Source: a virus. From it: 31,608 nt of DNA. Every line of letters begins with the position of its first letter. The first letter of the stretch is position 1. The translations under genes were made by a program, and so were the position numbers. A model generated the notes under the pieces. The model was given only the letters and a program-made list of their open reading frames with translations. It was not told the DNA's origin and did no database searches. Shown here in pieces: positions 817-14,242 of this stretch. Where the stretch lies: IMG/VR virus record IMGVR_UViG_3300038960_000076, positions 1-31,608 of that record; one strand, 5' to 3'.

Positions 817-953
817 TTACCTTGACCTCTGTACCTTTTAAAGTTTCTACGTTTGTGTTTGTTCTTAGGTCTTGATCTTATGCTTTGTCCAATAGATGTT
901 CTTTTCTTTGGTCCAGCTTCATGTTCTACGTAACTTTTTGCTTTACGTGCCAT
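813..953 (-). CDS. 46-residue highly basic protein, unknown function
   Basis: ATG 953 shares a base with the TAA of the upstream gene (TAATG), and the frame ends at TGA 813-815. The product starts MARKAKSYVEHEAGPKKRTS and ends in an almost purely basic tail (KNKHKRRNFKRYRGQGK). About 40 percent of residues are Lys, Arg or His, as in DNA- or RNA-binding peptides. The translational coupling and the position in the capsid operon support a real gene. I do not recognise a named family. Confidence 0.6.
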   Translation of the reverse strand: MARKAKSYVEHEAGPKKRTSIGQSIRSRPKNKHKRRNFKRYRGQGK

Positions 954-1135
954 TAGTTAGGTATTGGTCTGCCACTAAACACAGTGCCGACTGCTTGTTC
1001 TAGTTTTATATTGTCTCCTGCCTGTATGAGCAAGTACGTACCGTCTTCTAATTTTAAATTATCATTTGGTGTATCAGTACGTCTATCTCTATATCTATCT
1101 TGTCCTCTATGTGAAAATCTTGTTGCAATGGTCAT
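953..1135 (-). CDS. 60-residue small protein in the capsid operon, unknown function
   Basis: The protein begins MTIATRFSHRGQDRYRDRRT, a basic N-terminus rich in Arg, and continues into an acidic/neutral half with a strand-like pattern (DGTYLLIQAGDNIKLEQ). It ends GTVFSGRPIPN. Its ATG at 1133-1135 overlaps the TGA of the upstream beta-rich protein (ATGA), and its own TAA forms TAATG with the next gene, so it is coupled on both sides. It sits three genes after the major capsid protein. No known family is recognised; a minor head component is possible. Confidence 0.6.
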   Translation of the reverse strand: MTIATRFSHRGQDRYRDRRTDTPNDNLKLEDGTYLLIQAGDNIKLEQAVGTVFSGRPIPN

Positions 1136-1431
1136 TGTGTTAATTCAGACACCCTTGCAGTTCCGTCTGTTGATCCCACTCTTAACACAGCTACTTTTGT
1201 AGCAGGTGCAACTCTAAAATATTCTGGTGTAAACGCAGGCACAATTAAACTTGATGACGTTGCAGTAGGTGAAGTTGCGTTCATTTCTACATAAGCATCA
1301 ACAGTTGTAACGATTCTTATTTCTCTTGTTTGTGAATCAAATGCGTTAGAGGTTGCAGCAGACGAACTGCCAACAGCCACTGTTTGAGTTGATCCAACTT
1401 TAAATGTAGTAGGTGCTTTATAATCAGTCAT
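1132..1431 (-). CDS. Beta-rich capsid-associated protein, paralogue of the neighbouring 91-residue gene
   Basis: A 99-residue protein, rich in Ser, Thr, Val and Ala and lacking Cys, predicted all-beta. Its C-terminal two thirds align with the upstream 91-residue gene: REIRIVTTVDAYVEM against RYVRLYATTDCHITI, EYFRVAPATKVAVLR against EYFKVAPGNIISVIR, and VSELTQ against ISELSE. The genes lie two bases apart and directly after the capsid gene and its terminator-like hairpin. That position suits a head-decoration, head-fibre or head-completion protein; this is inference from position. The ATG at 1431 follows the upstream stop closely, and translation is probably coupled. Confidence 0.65.
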   Translation of the reverse strand: MTDYKAPTTFKVGSTQTVAVGSSSAATSNAFDSQTREIRIVTTVDAYVEMNATSPTATSSSLIVPAFTPEYFRVAPATKVAVLRVGSTDGTARVSELTQ

Positions 1432-7461: not shown

Positions 7462-7931
7462 TATTTAAGAATTCTGTTTATATAATCTCTAGTTTCTTTT
7501 GGTAACTTTTCAAACTTTGATCCCTGTTTTATCCAAGCATCTGTTTTTCCTGGACCCATGTTAAAAGCAGCTAACGCACTTATAACATCGTTATCATATC
7601 TATTAAGCATTGCGTTGAAATAATCAGTTCCAAATCTTACATTTTCAACTGGGTCAAAAGGATCTTTTAAAGGTTTAACACCAAAACCTGGATTTTCTGC
7701 TGTATCATCCATGATTTGCATCAACCCTTTAGCTCCTGTTCTTTCATTAACCGCATTAGGGTTACCAGAACTTTCTGCCATGATTATTTTTTGGATTAAA
7801 GTGTCATCACTGCCTTTTGGATCTGTGGAATCTAACAGGCCTTTAAATTCACCAGGAAGATTTGCTGAAATAAAATTGTTTATATCAGATAGTAAACCCC
7901 TGATTACTGTAGCACCATCAGTTACTGCCAC
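7461..7931 (-). CDS. Lytic transglycosylase (SLT-like), GTG start overlapping terS
   Basis: A 156-residue protein with a goose-type/SLT lysozyme fold. Catalytic Glu53 lies in IIMAESSGNPNAVN, followed by GAKGLMQIM (66-74) and AAFNMGPGKT (121-130), the usual three transglycosylase motifs. It cleaves glycan strands of peptidoglycan, either for lysis or as a virion enzyme during entry. The open frame extends to 8204, but the upstream part overlaps terS. I choose GTG 7931 because GGAG sits eight bases before it and the overlap with terS shrinks to 14 bases. ATG 7976 is the alternative; it would add MLISLLPSQ, which is mildly hydrophobic. The stop forms TAATG with terL. Confidence 0.8.
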   Translation of the reverse strand: MAVTDGATVIRGLLSDINNFISANLPGEFKGLLDSTDPKGSDDTLIQKIIMAESSGNPNAVNERTGAKGLMQIMDDTAENPGFGVKPLKDPFDPVENVRFGTDYFNAMLNRYDNDVISALAAFNMGPGKTDAWIKQGSKFEKLPKETRDYINRILK

Positions 7932-8211
7932 TTTTTTTTCTCCAACCGATTGTGACGGCAACAGGCTTATCAGCATCACCAGTAACAGTATTGCTAACAG
8001 ATGATAACCTTGAGTGAACAAATGGCGCAGCTCTCTCAGCAGCCCACATTTTTCTCTCAGGGCTTGAGCCGTTGTGGTTAAGAACCTTAAGCATATACTC
8101 AAGAGGTGAAACCTCATCTTTACCCAATGCTTTTTCGAGACGTTCTCGTTTCGTTCCGTTTTTAGTTCCTCTTGGCCTACCAGCACCTTTTCTTTTACCA
8201 CCATGTTTCAT
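7918..8211 (-). CDS. terS: Terminase small subunit-like protein
   Basis: A 97-residue protein starting MKHGGKRKGAGRPRGTKNG, the AT-hook-like GGKRKGAGRP opening found in many terminase small subunits. It is followed by SPLEYMLKVLNHNGSSPERK and a helix ending AAPFVHSRLSS. The pattern (PLEYML, then AAxxAAPFxHxRL) matches small terminase proteins of marine phages. TerS binds the packaging site and recruits the large subunit. ATG 8211 overlaps the stop of the preceding gene (ATGA). One gene, the transglycosylase, is inserted between it and terL. It is shorter than many TerS proteins but seems complete. Confidence 0.75.
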   Translation of the reverse strand: MKHGGKRKGAGRPRGTKNGTKRERLEKALGKDEVSPLEYMLKVLNHNGSSPERKMWAAERAAPFVHSRLSSVSNTVTGDADKPVAVTIGWRKKSGSN

Positions 8212-9943: not shown

Positions 9944-10613
9944 GAGGAAACATATTGAGGTTTCCAGCAACAGTGCGTCTTTCTCCCTTACCCTCAAATG
10001 GGTACACGCAGTGCTGACACCAAGACGGAAACATATACAGTTTTCCAACTTCAGGTTTTACAGTCTTAGAAAAGGGTGGTCTAAGCTCTTCTAAACCCCT
10101 TATCCCTGTCTGACCGAAGTGGAATTGTAAATATCCATCCGCTACTCCGCTTGAGTTATATAAAGCTGATGCCTTATATTCCTCGCCATCGGCTATTTGT
10201 TTGGGTATCTTTGTCCACGTGGTAAAGGATAAACCCATTATCGTGTCAACCCCATGATCATGCACTGGGTTGTAATCCCTCTCGTATGAGTGTACTGACC
10301 ATAAGCTGTGAACTCCTGGTAGTCTTTTTAAGGGTTTTACCCCTATCATTCTTGAGAATTGTTCTAAATACGACTGAGACATATTCGCAACAGTCTGGAC
10401 AAATGGTTGAACTAGGGGATCATCCTGATCCATTTTAAGCTGTTCACCATGACTTATTTGGCCCACTAGCTTGTCTGCAAAGCTCTCACCACCTTTGTTA
10501 TGTTTGGTGTCTAGGTATTTATTAAGATCAACCACCATCCTAGCAGGTAGTTGTGTTTGCAAGAAAAGCACCGCAGGTGCTGCTTGAAAACGTAACGTCA
10601 GTTCTGTAGTCAT
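9930..10613 (-). CDS. Putative 2OG-Fe(II) oxygenase
   Basis: A 227-residue protein with the double-stranded beta-helix dioxygenase signature. YNPVHDHGVDTIMGLSF (about 114-130) supplies the first Fe ligands (His118/His120 region), and LYMFPSWCQHCVYPF (about 192-206) carries the second His (201). ERRTVAGNLN supplies the 2-oxoglutarate-binding Arg212. This matches the family of phage and marine bacterial putative 2OG-Fe(II) oxygenases (2OG-FeII_Oxy_5 type). Such enzymes hydroxylate proteins or bases using 2-oxoglutarate and O2; the substrate is unknown. It is the first gene of the leftward block. A weak AGGG lies before ATG 10613. Confidence 0.85.
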   Translation of the reverse strand: MTTELTLRFQAAPAVLFLQTQLPARMVVDLNKYLDTKHNKGGESFADKLVGQISHGEQLKMDQDDPLVQPFVQTVANMSQSYLEQFSRMIGVKPLKRLPGVHSLWSVHSYERDYNPVHDHGVDTIMGLSFTTWTKIPKQIADGEEYKASALYNSSGVADGYLQFHFGQTGIRGLEELRPPFSKTVKPEVGKLYMFPSWCQHCVYPFEGKGERRTVAGNLNMFPHANN

Positions 10614-10654
10614 ATTATGCCCTAAGCTATAATTGATTTATAAAGGATTGTAAA

Positions 10655-10751
10655 TAAAACCCCCCTGTTTTGATTTAGATTTAGGAACGATACTATAACT
10701 ATACCGCTACCCCCATATATATTTGATGGGTATGGGCCGTTTAAAACCCCC
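10655..10751. repeat. Direct repeat TAAAACCCCC (two copies)
   Basis: TAAAACCCCC occurs at 10655-10664 (with an extra C) and at 10742-10751, 87 bases apart. On the leftward strand each reads GGGGGTTTTA. C-runs are rare in this AT-rich sequence, so two copies of the same 10-mer in one intergenic region suggest a protein-binding site. A third C-run (CTACCCCC, near 10707) lies between them. Confidence 0.45.
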
Positions 10752-10948: not shown

Positions 10949-10978
10949 CTGACACATTCTATTCGTACTAATTACAAT
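10949..10978 (+). promoter_or_regulatory. Sigma70-type promoter of the early rightward operon
   Basis: CTGACA (10949-10954) and TACAAT (10973-10978) each match the bacterial consensus in five of six positions, with an 18-base spacer. Transcription would start near 10985, just before AGGGAG (10991-10996) and ATG 11003. It should be read by the host RNA polymerase immediately after infection. Confidence 0.65.
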
Positions 10979-11002: not shown

Positions 11003-11200
11003 ATGGAACAAGTAAGAGAAGATATATATTTAAGAGATCCTAAGCTAGCCTTTAAGAATGCTATTGATTTAAAGGTAATGGTGAAGCCTCAAGACTATAT
11101 GTATATGTGTACTCGGAGATATGCCGATAATAAGCTGCATGATGTATTTAAGCATATAGATACAAGAAAAGTTGAAACTGTACTAATGGAGGGCCAATAG
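11003..11200 (+). CDS. 65-residue first gene of the early operon, unknown function
   Basis: Begins MEQVREDIYLRDPKLAFKNA and continues with DLKVMVKPQDYMYMCTRRYA. A mixed-charge, mostly helical small protein without membrane segment. AGGGAG sits seven bases before ATG 11003, and the early promoter is directly upstream, so it should be among the first phage proteins made. It overlaps nothing; its TAG abuts the next ATG. No family is recognised; a host-takeover factor is possible only by position. Confidence 0.65.
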   Translation: MEQVREDIYLRDPKLAFKNAIDLKVMVKPQDYMYMCTRRYADNKLHDVFKHIDTRKVETVLMEGQ

Positions 11201-11269
11201 ATGGTAATTGATATATTATTAATAGTCGTCATGGTTTCTATTCTATTAGTGGTTGAGTGGAAACTATGA
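11201..11269 (+). CDS. 22-residue single-pass membrane micropeptide
   Basis: ATG 11201 follows the upstream stop without a gap and has an excellent GGAGGG seven bases upstream. The product begins MVIDILLIVVMVSILLVVEW and is one hydrophobic helix from end to end. Its TGA overlaps the next ATG (ATGA), so it is coupled to the GP88 gene. The strong ribosome-binding site and both-sided coupling argue for a real gene despite its length. A role in the inner membrane, such as modulating a host channel or exclusion, is a guess. Confidence 0.55.
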   Translation: MVIDILLIVVMVSILLVVEWKL

Positions 11270-11976
11270 CTATGCAAGCTCAAGAATTCCAAGAAAGTTT
11301 ATTTACATACCTTCAGGCCCAAGGATGGAATTTAAAGAAGGCTAAGCTGTTGACTGGTGGAGGCGCAACAAATAAAAATAAGAAGATGCCTTTTTATAAC
11401 TACGATTTAAGCGCATGGGATTGTAACAAAGGATCTCAGCTTAGGAAGGTTAAAAATTCTGTATGTTCTTCATGCTATGCAATGAAGGGTAACTATTTAA
11501 GATACAGGGAAGGATCAGTAGGTAAATCTCACAAGCTACACAAAGAAAGTCTCAACAATGGTTTTCAATGGGTCTTAGGCATGGTTTATCAGGTTTTAAA
11601 GTCTGATTGTAAATATTTTAGATTTCATGCTGCTGGCGACTTACAGAGCTATGAACACGCCCTACAAATAATTAATTTAGCAAGATTAACGCCTTCTTGT
11701 AAGTATTGGATACCGACTAGAGAAACTGGCATATTAAAGCAGCTCAGAGATAATAAAATATATATACCTAAAAATTGTATATTTAGAGTTTCAGCGCCTT
11801 TGATTGATGCTCAGCTCAATAGTAAGGTTTTCAGTTATACAAGCTCAGTTATAACAAATAAGAAACTAGCTAAGAATTCTAAAATTTGCCCTTCAATTAA
11901 GCAGGGGGGTCAATGCCTTGATTGCCGCAGTTGTTGGTCAGATAAGGTGAATAATATTGCTTATTTAATTCATTAG
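11266..11976 (+). CDS. GP88-family phage protein (cysteine-rich, putative metal binding)
   Basis: A 236-residue protein starting MTMQAQEFQESLFTYLQAQG. Motifs in order: Cys53 in SAWDCNKGSQL, CSSCYAMKGNYLRY (67-80), YFRFHAAGDLQSYEHALQII (117-136), TPSCKYWIPTRE (142-153), and a C-terminal Cys cluster (Cys208, 217, 220, 223) ending in NNIAYLIH. This pattern matches the GP88 domain named after a mycobacteriophage gene product. The spaced Cys suggest a Zn or Fe-S site. The biochemical role is not known. ATG 11266 gives an ATGA overlap with the micropeptide; GTG 11257 and ATG 11272 are alternatives. It is the longest gene of the early operon. Confidence 0.75.
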   Translation: MTMQAQEFQESLFTYLQAQGWNLKKAKLLTGGGATNKNKKMPFYNYDLSAWDCNKGSQLRKVKNSVCSSCYAMKGNYLRYREGSVGKSHKLHKESLNNGFQWVLGMVYQVLKSDCKYFRFHAAGDLQSYEHALQIINLARLTPSCKYWIPTRETGILKQLRDNKIYIPKNCIFRVSAPLIDAQLNSKVFSYTSSVITNKKLAKNSKICPSIKQGGQCLDCRSCWSDKVNNIAYLIH

Positions 11977-11988
11977 AAAGGTTAATAA

Positions 11989-12084
11989 ATGAAAGGTATA
12001 GACATAGCAACAATGATCATAATAGCTGTTACAATTGCATCAGTTATTTTAACTATTGATTTATTAATAGGTGGTTTATTATGA
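11989..12084 (+). CDS. 31-residue single-pass membrane micropeptide
   Basis: ATG 11989 follows AAAGG and opens MKGIDIATMIIIAVTIASVI, then LTIDLLIGGLL. A short polar start is followed by one transmembrane helix. Its TGA overlaps the ATG of the next gene (ATGA). It is the second of three membrane micropeptides that alternate with soluble proteins in this operon. The function is unknown. Confidence 0.5.
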   Translation: MKGIDIATMIIIAVTIASVILTIDLLIGGLL

Positions 12085-12422
12085 CTAAATTTTGTTTAGT
12101 AGCTACATCTGGCGACATGTCAAAACATGGAATGGGTGATAAAAATACCGTTTATGTTTTTAAAAATAAGCATAAAAAATACGTTGACCGCTTTTTAAAA
12201 GCGCAATTAGAATATCACTTGCAATGCTATAGTTTGCAATCAGGAAGAGATTTAAAATACTATTTAGATTTTAATAAATCTTTTAATGTATTGAAAGACA
12301 TAGGCATATTTACTAGTAAATATGACGCAAGAACTTCATGGGATTTATCAGAACTATCAGAAGTAATTGAAGGTAGAGAATACAAACCCATTTTAATAGG
12401 TGATAATTATGAACAAATTTAA
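12081..12422 (+). CDS. 113-residue unknown protein in the early operon
   Basis: Begins MTKFCLVATSGDMSKHGMGD and continues with a basic, aromatic-rich stretch (FKNKHKKYVDRFLKAQLEYH, then LQCYSLQSGRDLKYYL). Predicted mixed alpha/beta, soluble. GGTGG in the preceding peptide gene provides the ribosome-binding site. Its end overlaps the start of the next gene by 14 bases. No family is recognised. Confidence 0.6.
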   Translation: MTKFCLVATSGDMSKHGMGDKNTVYVFKNKHKKYVDRFLKAQLEYHLQCYSLQSGRDLKYYLDFNKSFNVLKDIGIFTSKYDARTSWDLSELSEVIEGREYKPILIGDNYEQI

Positions 12423-12597
12423 ACCTGCTGGCTGGTATATTAAATTTAAATTAGAAGGCACTGGCCCAACTCAAGTAATAACTAAGCATTACGATACACT
12501 GACAGCTAATGCAACAATAAACAAATTGAAAGGGGAGTTCCAACAGCCTGTAGATATTATTGAACTATGGCAAGCAGGAACTCATAAAAAAATATGA
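12409..12597 (+). CDS. 62-residue unknown protein in the early operon
   Basis: Begins MNKFKPAGWYIKFKLEGTGP and ends DIIELWQAGTHKKI. The pattern, strands followed by a central helix (TLTANATINKLKGEF), suggests a small alpha/beta fold. I choose ATG 12409 over GTG 12400 because AGGTGA lies six bases upstream of it and cannot serve the GTG. The TGA overlaps the ATG of the following micropeptide (ATGA). No function can be assigned. Confidence 0.55.
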   Translation: MNKFKPAGWYIKFKLEGTGPTQVITKHYDTLTANATINKLKGEFQQPVDIIELWQAGTHKKI

Positions 12598-12668
12598 CTG
12601 AAAATAAAGCTAGACTAATGGCACTAACAGCTATAGGTTTTGTGTTTATATTATTATTTTTAATTTAA
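12594..12668 (+). CDS. 24-residue single-pass membrane micropeptide
   Basis: ATG 12594 overlaps the upstream TGA (ATGA) and opens MTENKARLMALTAIGFVFIL, then LFLI. A charged N-terminus precedes a single hydrophobic helix, which suits an N-in orientation. It is the third membrane micropeptide of this operon. The coupled start is the main support for it being real; no separate ribosome-binding site is obvious. Confidence 0.45.
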   Translation: MTENKARLMALTAIGFVFILLFLI

Positions 12669-12678
12669 AGGGGTAAAA

Positions 12679-12927
12679 ATGAATGAAACAATAAAAGTTG
12701 TGGCTTTTGAAAAGGATAGCCCTGATATTCCTAGAGCTTGGGGAGAAGGTCAAACGCTAGCCATTGCTGAGTTAAACTGTGAAATAGCTATAAGAAAAAA
12801 AGTAATTAATAAACTTCAAAGCGGTAATCGTTTCGCTTGTGTAGGAAATTATTTTTATACAAAAGAAAAACAATCAACAGAAAAGGGAGATAAATATGGA
12901 CAAACAAGAAGCAACAAAAATTATTAA
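12679..12927 (+). CDS. 82-residue unknown protein in the early operon
   Basis: Begins MNETIKVVAFEKDSPDIPRA and continues with WGEGQTLAIAELNCEIAIRK. The middle (EGQTLAIAELNCEIAIRKKV) is a helix with two hydrophobic faces; the C-terminus is polar and basic. AAAGGGG precedes ATG 12679 at good distance. It overlaps the next gene by 32 bases. No family is recognised. Confidence 0.6.
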   Translation: MNETIKVVAFEKDSPDIPRAWGEGQTLAIAELNCEIAIRKKVINKLQSGNRFACVGNYFYTKEKQSTEKGDKYGQTRSNKNY

Positions 12928-13249
12928 AGAAGCTATACAAGGTTACATTGAAGACTGTATTAGCGAAGATGTAGAATTGCAGCATCAAATAAATAAAGCG
13001 TTTAAAATTTTAAAGGGTGAAAGGGGTTTTGATAACGAAGATAATACAGTTATGGAAAACTTCTCTGATTGGATTTTAGATAGGCCAGTTGGTGTTGATT
13101 GTCAATTTATGGAAATATGTAGCGGTGTAGTATATGGAACTGAAAACGAAATTTGTTTTTCTATTCAATTTCAAATGCCATTCGATGACAGTAAACCCAG
13201 AAAAGGGCCATTCATAACTAAAGTGAAAGAAAAAGGTAAATATGAATAA
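12896..13249 (+). CDS. 117-residue acidic unknown protein
   Basis: Begins MDKQEATKIIKEAIQGYIED and is acidic overall. The N-terminal 45 residues are helical; the rest has strand patterns (CQFMEICSGVVYGT, then EICFSIQFQMPFDD). AAGGGAG precedes ATG 12896. A small acidic protein in an early operon could be a DNA mimic or an inhibitor of a host enzyme, but nothing specific shows this. It overlaps the next gene by eight bases. Confidence 0.6.
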   Translation: MDKQEATKIIKEAIQGYIEDCISEDVELQHQINKAFKILKGERGFDNEDNTVMENFSDWILDRPVGVDCQFMEICSGVVYGTENEICFSIQFQMPFDDSKPRKGPFITKVKEKGKYE

Positions 13250-13427
13250 TGTAGTATCACTTAAAGCTGATGAAAAAGTTTATTTTCTTTGCTCTAACGG
13301 TAATAAAAACATCATACAAGCTAGCAAAAATAAAAGAGAACTTACAAAAGTTATGGAAGATCTTAATAAAATAGCTAAGCAGTATCATGGGTTTATTGAA
13401 GATAGATTTTATTTACTAGAACAATGA
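13242..13427 (+). CDS. 61-residue unknown protein in the early operon
   Basis: Begins MNNVVSLKADEKVYFLCSNG and ends HGFIEDRFYLLEQ. Reads as two strands, a basic helix (KRELTKVMEDLNKIAKQYHG) and a last strand. AAAAAGG lies before ATG 13242. Its TGA overlaps the next ATG (ATGA), so both are coupled. No family is recognised. Confidence 0.55.
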   Translation: MNNVVSLKADEKVYFLCSNGNKNIIQASKNKRELTKVMEDLNKIAKQYHGFIEDRFYLLEQ

Positions 13428-13642
13428 ACGGTAAATATAAAGCCTTCTATTTCAATGATATAGAAAGATTTGAAGAGCTAAATAAAACTGTAGCTGACTG
13501 TGTTAAACTAACAAAAGAAAATCTAAACAAAATATACCCAAGCAACAAACAACTAATCCTAAATATAAAAGAAGTGGATTTGATGGTTCAGGCATTCCAT
13601 CTTCTACAAAAAAAATTACAGGATGACAATAATAATATTTAG
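13424..13642 (+). CDS. 72-residue unknown protein, last gene of the early operon
   Basis: Begins MNGKYKAFYFNDIERFEELN and is mostly helical, with a Lys/Asn-rich middle and LMVQAFHLLQKKLQD near the end. ATG 13424 is coupled to the upstream stop (ATGA). Its TAG overlaps the stop codon of the oppositely oriented metallopeptidase-like gene by four bases, so the two operons converge with no space for a standard terminator. The function is unknown. Confidence 0.55.
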   Translation: MNGKYKAFYFNDIERFEELNKTVADCVKLTKENLNKIYPSNKQLILNIKEVDLMVQAFHLLQKKLQDDNNNI

Positions 13643-14007
13643 TCCTGTAATAAATAATCTCTGAGCCATTTATTTTGTTTAAGCATAGTCATGAAGTGAT
13701 TAGTCAATGAGTTTACGACCAGCTCTTCATCTTCTGACTTTTCTAAACACATACCCTCGCCATTGGCAGTAGATAACCAAACACATAAATGAAAAATTTC
13801 ATGAACCAAACTATTTTTTTCATAGTTTAAATCTTGTCCATGCTGCAAGGTGATTGTAGCCTTGCGCTTGTCAAACAAACCAAAGTTATCAGTCATATGA
13901 TCATCATGGAACTGGGGTTTACAAACCTCTATCTTAATATCAATACCGCCTGCGTCTAAAACTTGGCCGTCTAATTTAATGGATTGTTTCCGAGATTTCG
14001 AGGTCAT
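13639..14007 (-). CDS. Small HExxH metallopeptidase-like protein
   Basis: A 122-residue protein with HEIFH at 69-73, embedded in NSLVHEIFHLCVWLS, and an acidic SEDEELVV (91-98) that could supply the third zinc ligand. This is the layout of phage zincins of the ImmA/SprT-like kind. Before the motif are strands (ATITLQHG) typical of the fold. Such proteins cleave repressors or host proteins in known cases, but the substrate here is unknown. The frame is open from ATG 14040; I prefer ATG 14007, which halves the overlap with the upstream gene to 32 bases. Neither start has a clear ribosome-binding site. Confidence 0.7.
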   Translation of the reverse strand: MTSKSRKQSIKLDGQVLDAGGIDIKIEVCKPQFHDDHMTDNFGLFDKRKATITLQHGQDLNYEKNSLVHEIFHLCVWLSTANGEGMCLEKSEDEELVVNSLTNHFMTMLKQNKWLRDYLLQD

Positions 14008-14242
14008 AAAATAATTCGTAGTCGTTTTCCTGTGTTTCAAACATCAATAAATCTAGATATTGTGAAGCTACAAGACTGGCTGCCATGGCCCTTGCAATTT
14101 TACGGCCTTGCTTTGGGCCAAACTGTGTAAGAAATTCTGTTCTGTAAAAACTGTCTGCAAGTTGGTTTATATCTGTTTCTTTTAAGTAGGTTTCAGACCT
14201 TGGCAAATCAGGTGTATCGAGTTTAAGTTTAATTTTAGTCAT
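13976..14242 (-). CDS. 88-residue helical protein upstream of the metallopeptidase
   Basis: Begins MTKIKLKLDTPDLPRSETYL and has two probable helices (NQLADSFYRTEFLTQFG and KIARAMAASLVASQYLDLLM). It ends in an acidic, aromatic tail (DYELFYDLEISETIH). It overlaps the metallopeptidase-like gene by 32 bases, and a toxin/antitoxin-like or substrate/peptidase pairing is conceivable but without direct support. No family is recognised. Confidence 0.6.
   Translation of the reverse strand: MTKIKLKLDTPDLPRSETYLKETDINQLADSFYRTEFLTQFGPKQGRKIARAMAASLVASQYLDLLMFETQENDYELFYDLEISETIH

Follow-up and report, generated by a model that had tools for sequence, protein, structure and literature searches.

The Operon and Its Setting

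The window analyzed here is the whole of a 31.6-kb virus record (31,608 nucleotides; IMG/VR IMGVR_UViG_3300038960_000076), and between positions 11003 and 13642 it carries a plus-strand operon of 11 genes, in the order p65, m22, GP88, m31, p113, p62, m24, p82, p117, p61, and p72 (Table 1). A 2OG-Fe(II) oxygenase gene and the late genes run divergently from it. The nearest terminases are those of Pelagibacter phage HTVC106P (50%), of Methylophilales phage Venkman (47%), and of the HTVC010P group. No DNA relatives were found by blastn among cultured phages, and a search of GTDB genomes with the terminase for a host returned no relative. Related loci (numbered with the prefix L) were collected from IMG/VR by scans with GP88, p62, p72, p113, the oxygenase, and the downstream gene; their genes were called with a home-made caller, and exact gene counts there are approximate.

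Table 1 Features of the operon and of an RNA element in related loci (window positions unless a related locus is named)
Feature	Position	Strand	Observations
Probable operon promoter, CTGACA-18-TACAAT	10949..10978	+	consensus match 10/12
p65, soluble; GGAGG site at 3' end used by next gene	11003..11200	+	homologues 47-97%, omega ~0.2
m22, 22-aa single-helix micropeptide, removable cassette	11201..11269	+	omega 0.077 vs L027
GP88 family protein, Cys-rich	11266..11976	+	PF17338, E = 5.5e-15
m31, 31-aa single-helix micropeptide, exact-ORF cassette	11989..12084	+	omega 0.027 (L025), <0.1 (L036)
p113, soluble	12081..12422	+	homologues 28-83%
p62, soluble, always directly 5' of m24	12409..12597	+	
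m24, 24-aa micropeptide, hydrophobic helix C-terminal	12594..12668	+	five alleles; omega 0.2-0.5
p82	12679..12927	+	86% homologue in L025, where shorter
p117	12896..13249	+	absent in L025; 47% partial homologue in L127
p61, core soluble gene of the operon type	13242..13427	+	family F1, in most related operons
p72, final gene	13424..13642	+	97% in L025, 69% in L127
RNA element (related loci)	L036:1124-1199, L050:1489-1563, L041:3977-4051, L059:8521-8597	-	plus 14 more sense copies

The promoter-like site is kept in the four closest loci (L025, L035, L036, and L021), with single changes in two of them; sites with a consensus match of this kind were no commoner in the real sequence than in shuffles. 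The GP88 homologue of phage HTVC027P, gp33, is reported to be highly expressed at early-to-middle times (PMC12753301). From the kept site, and by analogy with gp33, the operon probably acts early, as the original prediction had it, and is a probable accessory operon of the host-takeover type. The micropeptide genes had been assigned to its promoter-proximal end; they do lie within the operon, but as genes 2, 4, and 7 of 11 they are not strictly proximal.

Two observations concern the borders. Upstream of the oxygenase gene, TTGTAAATAAAACCCCCCT (positions 10641-10665) is conserved in 12 or more related loci; its minus strand contains TTTACA, located 17 nt ahead of a TATAGC, and it may be a leftward promoter. 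At the other end, a minus-strand gene with an HEIFH zinc-peptidase-like motif (13639-14040) converges directly on the operon; it is kept in the closest relatives and found at ~40% in three others.

The operon had been described as unrecognized proteins plus a GP88 protein, and profile searches agree. GP88 matches PF17338 with 56.3 bits (curated cutoff, 24.4) over profile positions 1 to 228 of 230, and its cysteines are invariant in an alignment of 13 sequences; no other gene of the operon, micropeptides included, has a significant family in Pfam or PHROGs. The model of the GP88 fold is of low confidence (pLDDT 61), and a PDB search with it gave no significant match; a cysteine-rich, TIM-barrel-like enzyme is only a guess. 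The soluble partners gave only two weak matches to PADLOC defense proteins (E = 0.007 and 0.014); both cover short stretches and are not credible. In locus L019, p72 is followed by a 134-aa gene (940-1344, plus strand) that by eye resembles a PD-(D/E)XK nuclease and is absent from the window.

Three Micro-ORFs under Selection

The three frames of 22, 31, and 24 codons, with their lengths and junctions, agree with the original description. Each encodes one hydrophobic helix (peak 17-residue hydropathy of 3.29 for m22, 2.63 for m31, and 2.91 for m24), and judging from hydropathy only, all three are predicted to insert into the host membrane as helices. Each is also overlapped on at least one side, as claimed: m22 with GP88 (CTATGA, GP88 start at 11266), m31 with p113 (ATGA, with a 12-nt gap on the 5' side), and m24 with p62 (ATGA, with a 10-nt gap on the 3' side). 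The m22 ATG lies directly 3' of the p65 TAG, with GGAGG 8 nt upstream.

A single gene-calling rule for hydrophobic ORFs of ≤40 aa was applied to the real sequence and to 100 dinucleotide shuffles. The window operon gave three calls, and the shuffles gave none in 96 cases and one in the other 4. Across 18 related operons (46 kb), 21 such ORFs were called, compared with 3 in antisense and 0 to 1 in shuffles.

The proposed comparison of synonymous and nonsynonymous change revealed purifying selection, strong for m22 and m31 and weaker for m24. Between the two m22 alleles available (window and L027), 8 changes are synonymous and 3 nonsynonymous (P = 3.6e-4 for the omega in Table 1); for m31, the counts against L025 are 9 and 1 (P = 1e-5), and the comparison with L036 gives P = 5e-8. 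Constraint on m24 is weak (best P = 0.008). When the window sequence was mutated at random by the same number of bases, the simulated chance of so few amino acid changes was 0 to 5e-5 for m22 and m31 and 0.02 to 0.07 for m24. None of the frames is disrupted in close relatives, and all are intact where present. The shuffle excess, the mutation simulation, and the confinement of homology to the ORF together rule out chance ORFs in AT-rich DNA. The micro-ORFs thus all behave like genes that encode proteins, the evidence being strong for m22 and m31 and weaker for m24.

Exchange as Single-ORF Cassettes

Between the window and L027, the m22 ORF is 83% identical and its 45-bp flanks are 47% and 24% identical; between the window and L025, the m31 ORF is 90% identical and its flanks are 29% and 33% identical. 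Among relatives, m22 is either present or cleanly absent: L025 differs by a clean 71-bp indel (11201-11271 missing), such that GGAGGGCCAATAG leads directly into the GP88 ATG. Because DNA similarity does not extend past the start and stop codons and the neighbors change, m22 and m31 are each their own exchange unit, and the alignments show them inherited and swapped as exact single-ORF cassettes.

The very strong GGAGGG ribosome-binding site credited to m22 is present, but it lies within the 3' terminus of p65. In the m22-less lineage (L025) it directly serves GP88, and thus it is not specific to m22. The site is part of the p65 end and serves whichever gene follows, which weakens it as evidence for m22.

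The micropeptides had been proposed to act as a set. In relatives, however, m22 and m31 occur without each other and beside different genes (four different genes follow m31), and on this independent segregation we reject a functional trio. Only m24 has a fixed partner: p62 is directly upstream of it in five of five alleles (window, L025, L036, L021, and L127), and its downstream side varies. DNA-pattern scans for further m22 and m24 found only one more m24, in L127, the remaining hits being chance; a tblastn search with m31 against 50,697 phage records gave no match.

Compared as chains of family-labeled genes, the related operons are homologous but reshuffled, with p61 as a core and the promoter-proximal part freely replaced; in L021 and L036, two soluble genes and the RNA element described below occupy the place of m22 and GP88. 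About 12 unrelated single-helix peptide families occur in this operon among the related phages, the commonest having a WC.SEI..LR tail and 14 members. Omega is well below 1 in several of them and indistinguishable from neutral in some. Certain pairs and orders are fixed, such as the order F2-F0-F4 and, in three loci, a 36-aa transmembrane (TM) peptide paired with a basic one of 24 aa. Upstream regions of L027 (1338-1498) and L050 (1673-1854) encode a TM micropeptide with EWKL or EWYL as its last residues and then a short basic peptide with the pattern KYR.YL...K.L, as if the two were paired.

The regions scanned in two cultured relatives yielded only one to two candidate micropeptides, and the trait may therefore be confined to this lineage. 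Unannotated, predicted hydrophobic ORFs of 20 and 31 codons lie at 1378-1440 in HTVC106P (L110) and at 10468-10563 in Venkman (L111), respectively. The shortest listed coding sequences in these two nearest cultured relatives are about 41 and 46 aa; genes as short as the micropeptides are usually missed by annotation.

What the Micropeptides May Do

The ATGA overlaps could be taken to mean that the micro-ORFs are leaders that deliver ribosomes to the next gene by translational coupling, the peptide itself being irrelevant, and the last codons of m31 (GGT GGT TTA TT) do hold a Shine-Dalgarno-like GGTGG for the gene that follows. A leader of this kind would have an unconstrained peptide and a fixed downstream gene. 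Instead, amino acids are constrained while synonymous change is free, the same peptide precedes differing downstream genes, and GP88 is read without m22 in L025. This reading is thus already disfavored, for m22 and m31 and less so for m24, and we consider it very improbable. Hardly more can be said for peptides of lysis or lysis timing (holin, pinholin, or antiholin type), one of the roles originally suggested. They would be single-helix membrane peptides, and the F0 family of relatives resembles a colicin lysis protein below threshold (E = 0.08), but the operon is divergent from the late genes, no endolysin adjoins it (an endolysin-like transglycosylase is encoded at 7464-8204 on the minus strand), and no holin family was matched. 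The other roles originally suggested, superinfection exclusion, inhibition of a host channel, and counter-defense, look alike at the sequence level.

In size and hydropathy the micropeptides would also suit a TisB- or YohP-like perturbation of the membrane, in which a lowered potential or altered lipid order would subdue the host or keep out a second phage. The effect on potential has a clear precedent in the 27-aa stress peptide YohP, which reduces both membrane potential and metabolism in Escherichia coli (PMC12719787). Yet m22 and m31 are not cationic, no antisense antitoxin RNA family of Rfam was matched above chance in the window, and early depolarization would cost the phage energy, and we regard this explanation as quite doubtful. 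That each micropeptide anchors or regulates a neighboring soluble protein, the pair being the functional unit, is unlikely as a general account, as the neighbors of m22 and m31 differ on both sides between phages. The model is at its best for m24, given its invariable, overlapping adjacency to p62, and the fixed pairs in relatives are in keeping with it; m24 most likely cooperates with p62, perhaps by serving as its partner in the membrane.

The explanation that we favor, although we put its chances slightly short of even, is that these are early, swappable micropeptides of the host inner membrane that act on host targets and are encoded in a modular accessory operon of a marine phage. After injection, the operon would be transcribed early from the divergent promoter, and the peptides would insert as single helices into the inner membrane, where they may bind or modulate transporters, respiratory complexes, or injection or defense machinery. 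The present infection would be favored or other infections excluded; m24 would work with p62, and m22 and m31 would act alone. Different hosts would present different targets and hence call for different peptides in each phage. We infer such targets from the combination of between-phage turnover and within-gene constraint, which typifies accessory genes directed against the host. A more far-reaching version, which we offer as a rather unlikely possibility, is that a group of marine phages maintains a standing repertoire of single-helix membrane micropeptides, recombining one gene of 20 to 40 codons at a time, with each phage holding a different small hand aimed at host membrane proteins or membrane-bound defenses; this would be a micropeptide counterpart of anti-CRISPR loci.

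Relation to Known Systems

HK97 gp15, a prophage moron product of ~58 aa, is a small inner-membrane superinfection exclusion protein that blocks DNA injection by a second phage. Such systems resemble the window peptides in being short products of phage accessory genes with one or few TM helices, and a single membrane helix is predicted here too, from hydropathy only; the window peptides differ in being 22 to 31 aa long and in belonging to a probable lytic operon. The type I toxins TisB, Fst, and Ibs are likewise short single-helix membrane peptides. Unlike them, the window micropeptides are encoded polycistronically with translational overlaps, and both m22 and m31 are net acidic. No antisense antitoxin RNA was matched above chance in the window among the known families covered by Rfam. 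AcrZ, MgtS, and KdpF are bacterial small membrane proteins of <50 aa with one TM helix. These proteins and YohP (PMC12719787) share with the micropeptides this size, the single helix, and the lack of a catalytic part, but they are host chromosomal genes; in Pfam, small membrane proteins gave no significant match, the only approach being an MgtS-like E of 0.33 for a relative's peptide.

Variable regions of phages are known to house small genes for host takeover and anti-defense, and gene gain and loss between close relatives and small proteins are general features of variable early or accessory regions (PMC11323111). What differs is that exchange is here resolved to single ORFs of 20 to 31 codons and involves ~12 single-helix families. 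The families and the exact-ORF exchange look new within the libraries searched, a scope to which the small-phage-gene catalogue of Fremin et al. (2022) does not belong. Selection and exact-ORF exchange show that a stretch of 22 to 31 codons can be inherited as a complete unit. If the peptides act on host membrane proteins, such operons would offer a ready-made collection of natural peptides that bind membrane targets and membrane-bound defenses.

An RNA Element in Related Operons

In relatives, the same operon contains an RNA element of ~75 to 95 nt, which separates a stop codon from the Shine-Dalgarno sequence that follows. It consists of AGUCUUUAACUUAU, a hairpin, AUGAGAUACAGAC, and then GUAUC, with AGUCUUUAACUUAU and AUGAGAUACAGAC fixed. 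The window lacks it (best E, 0.8), and no Rfam family was matched in the seven loci searched. Across 15 aligned copies, standard pairs fill 98.4% of pair cells and nine pairs change on both sides, compared with ≤50% standard pairs in slid controls. GUCU/AGAC and GAUAC/GUAUC pairing would jointly form a pseudoknot. The element looks like an undescribed cis-acting RNA, probably pseudoknotted, and it merits separate study. A model of it found 18 sense copies in related loci, with two in some loci.
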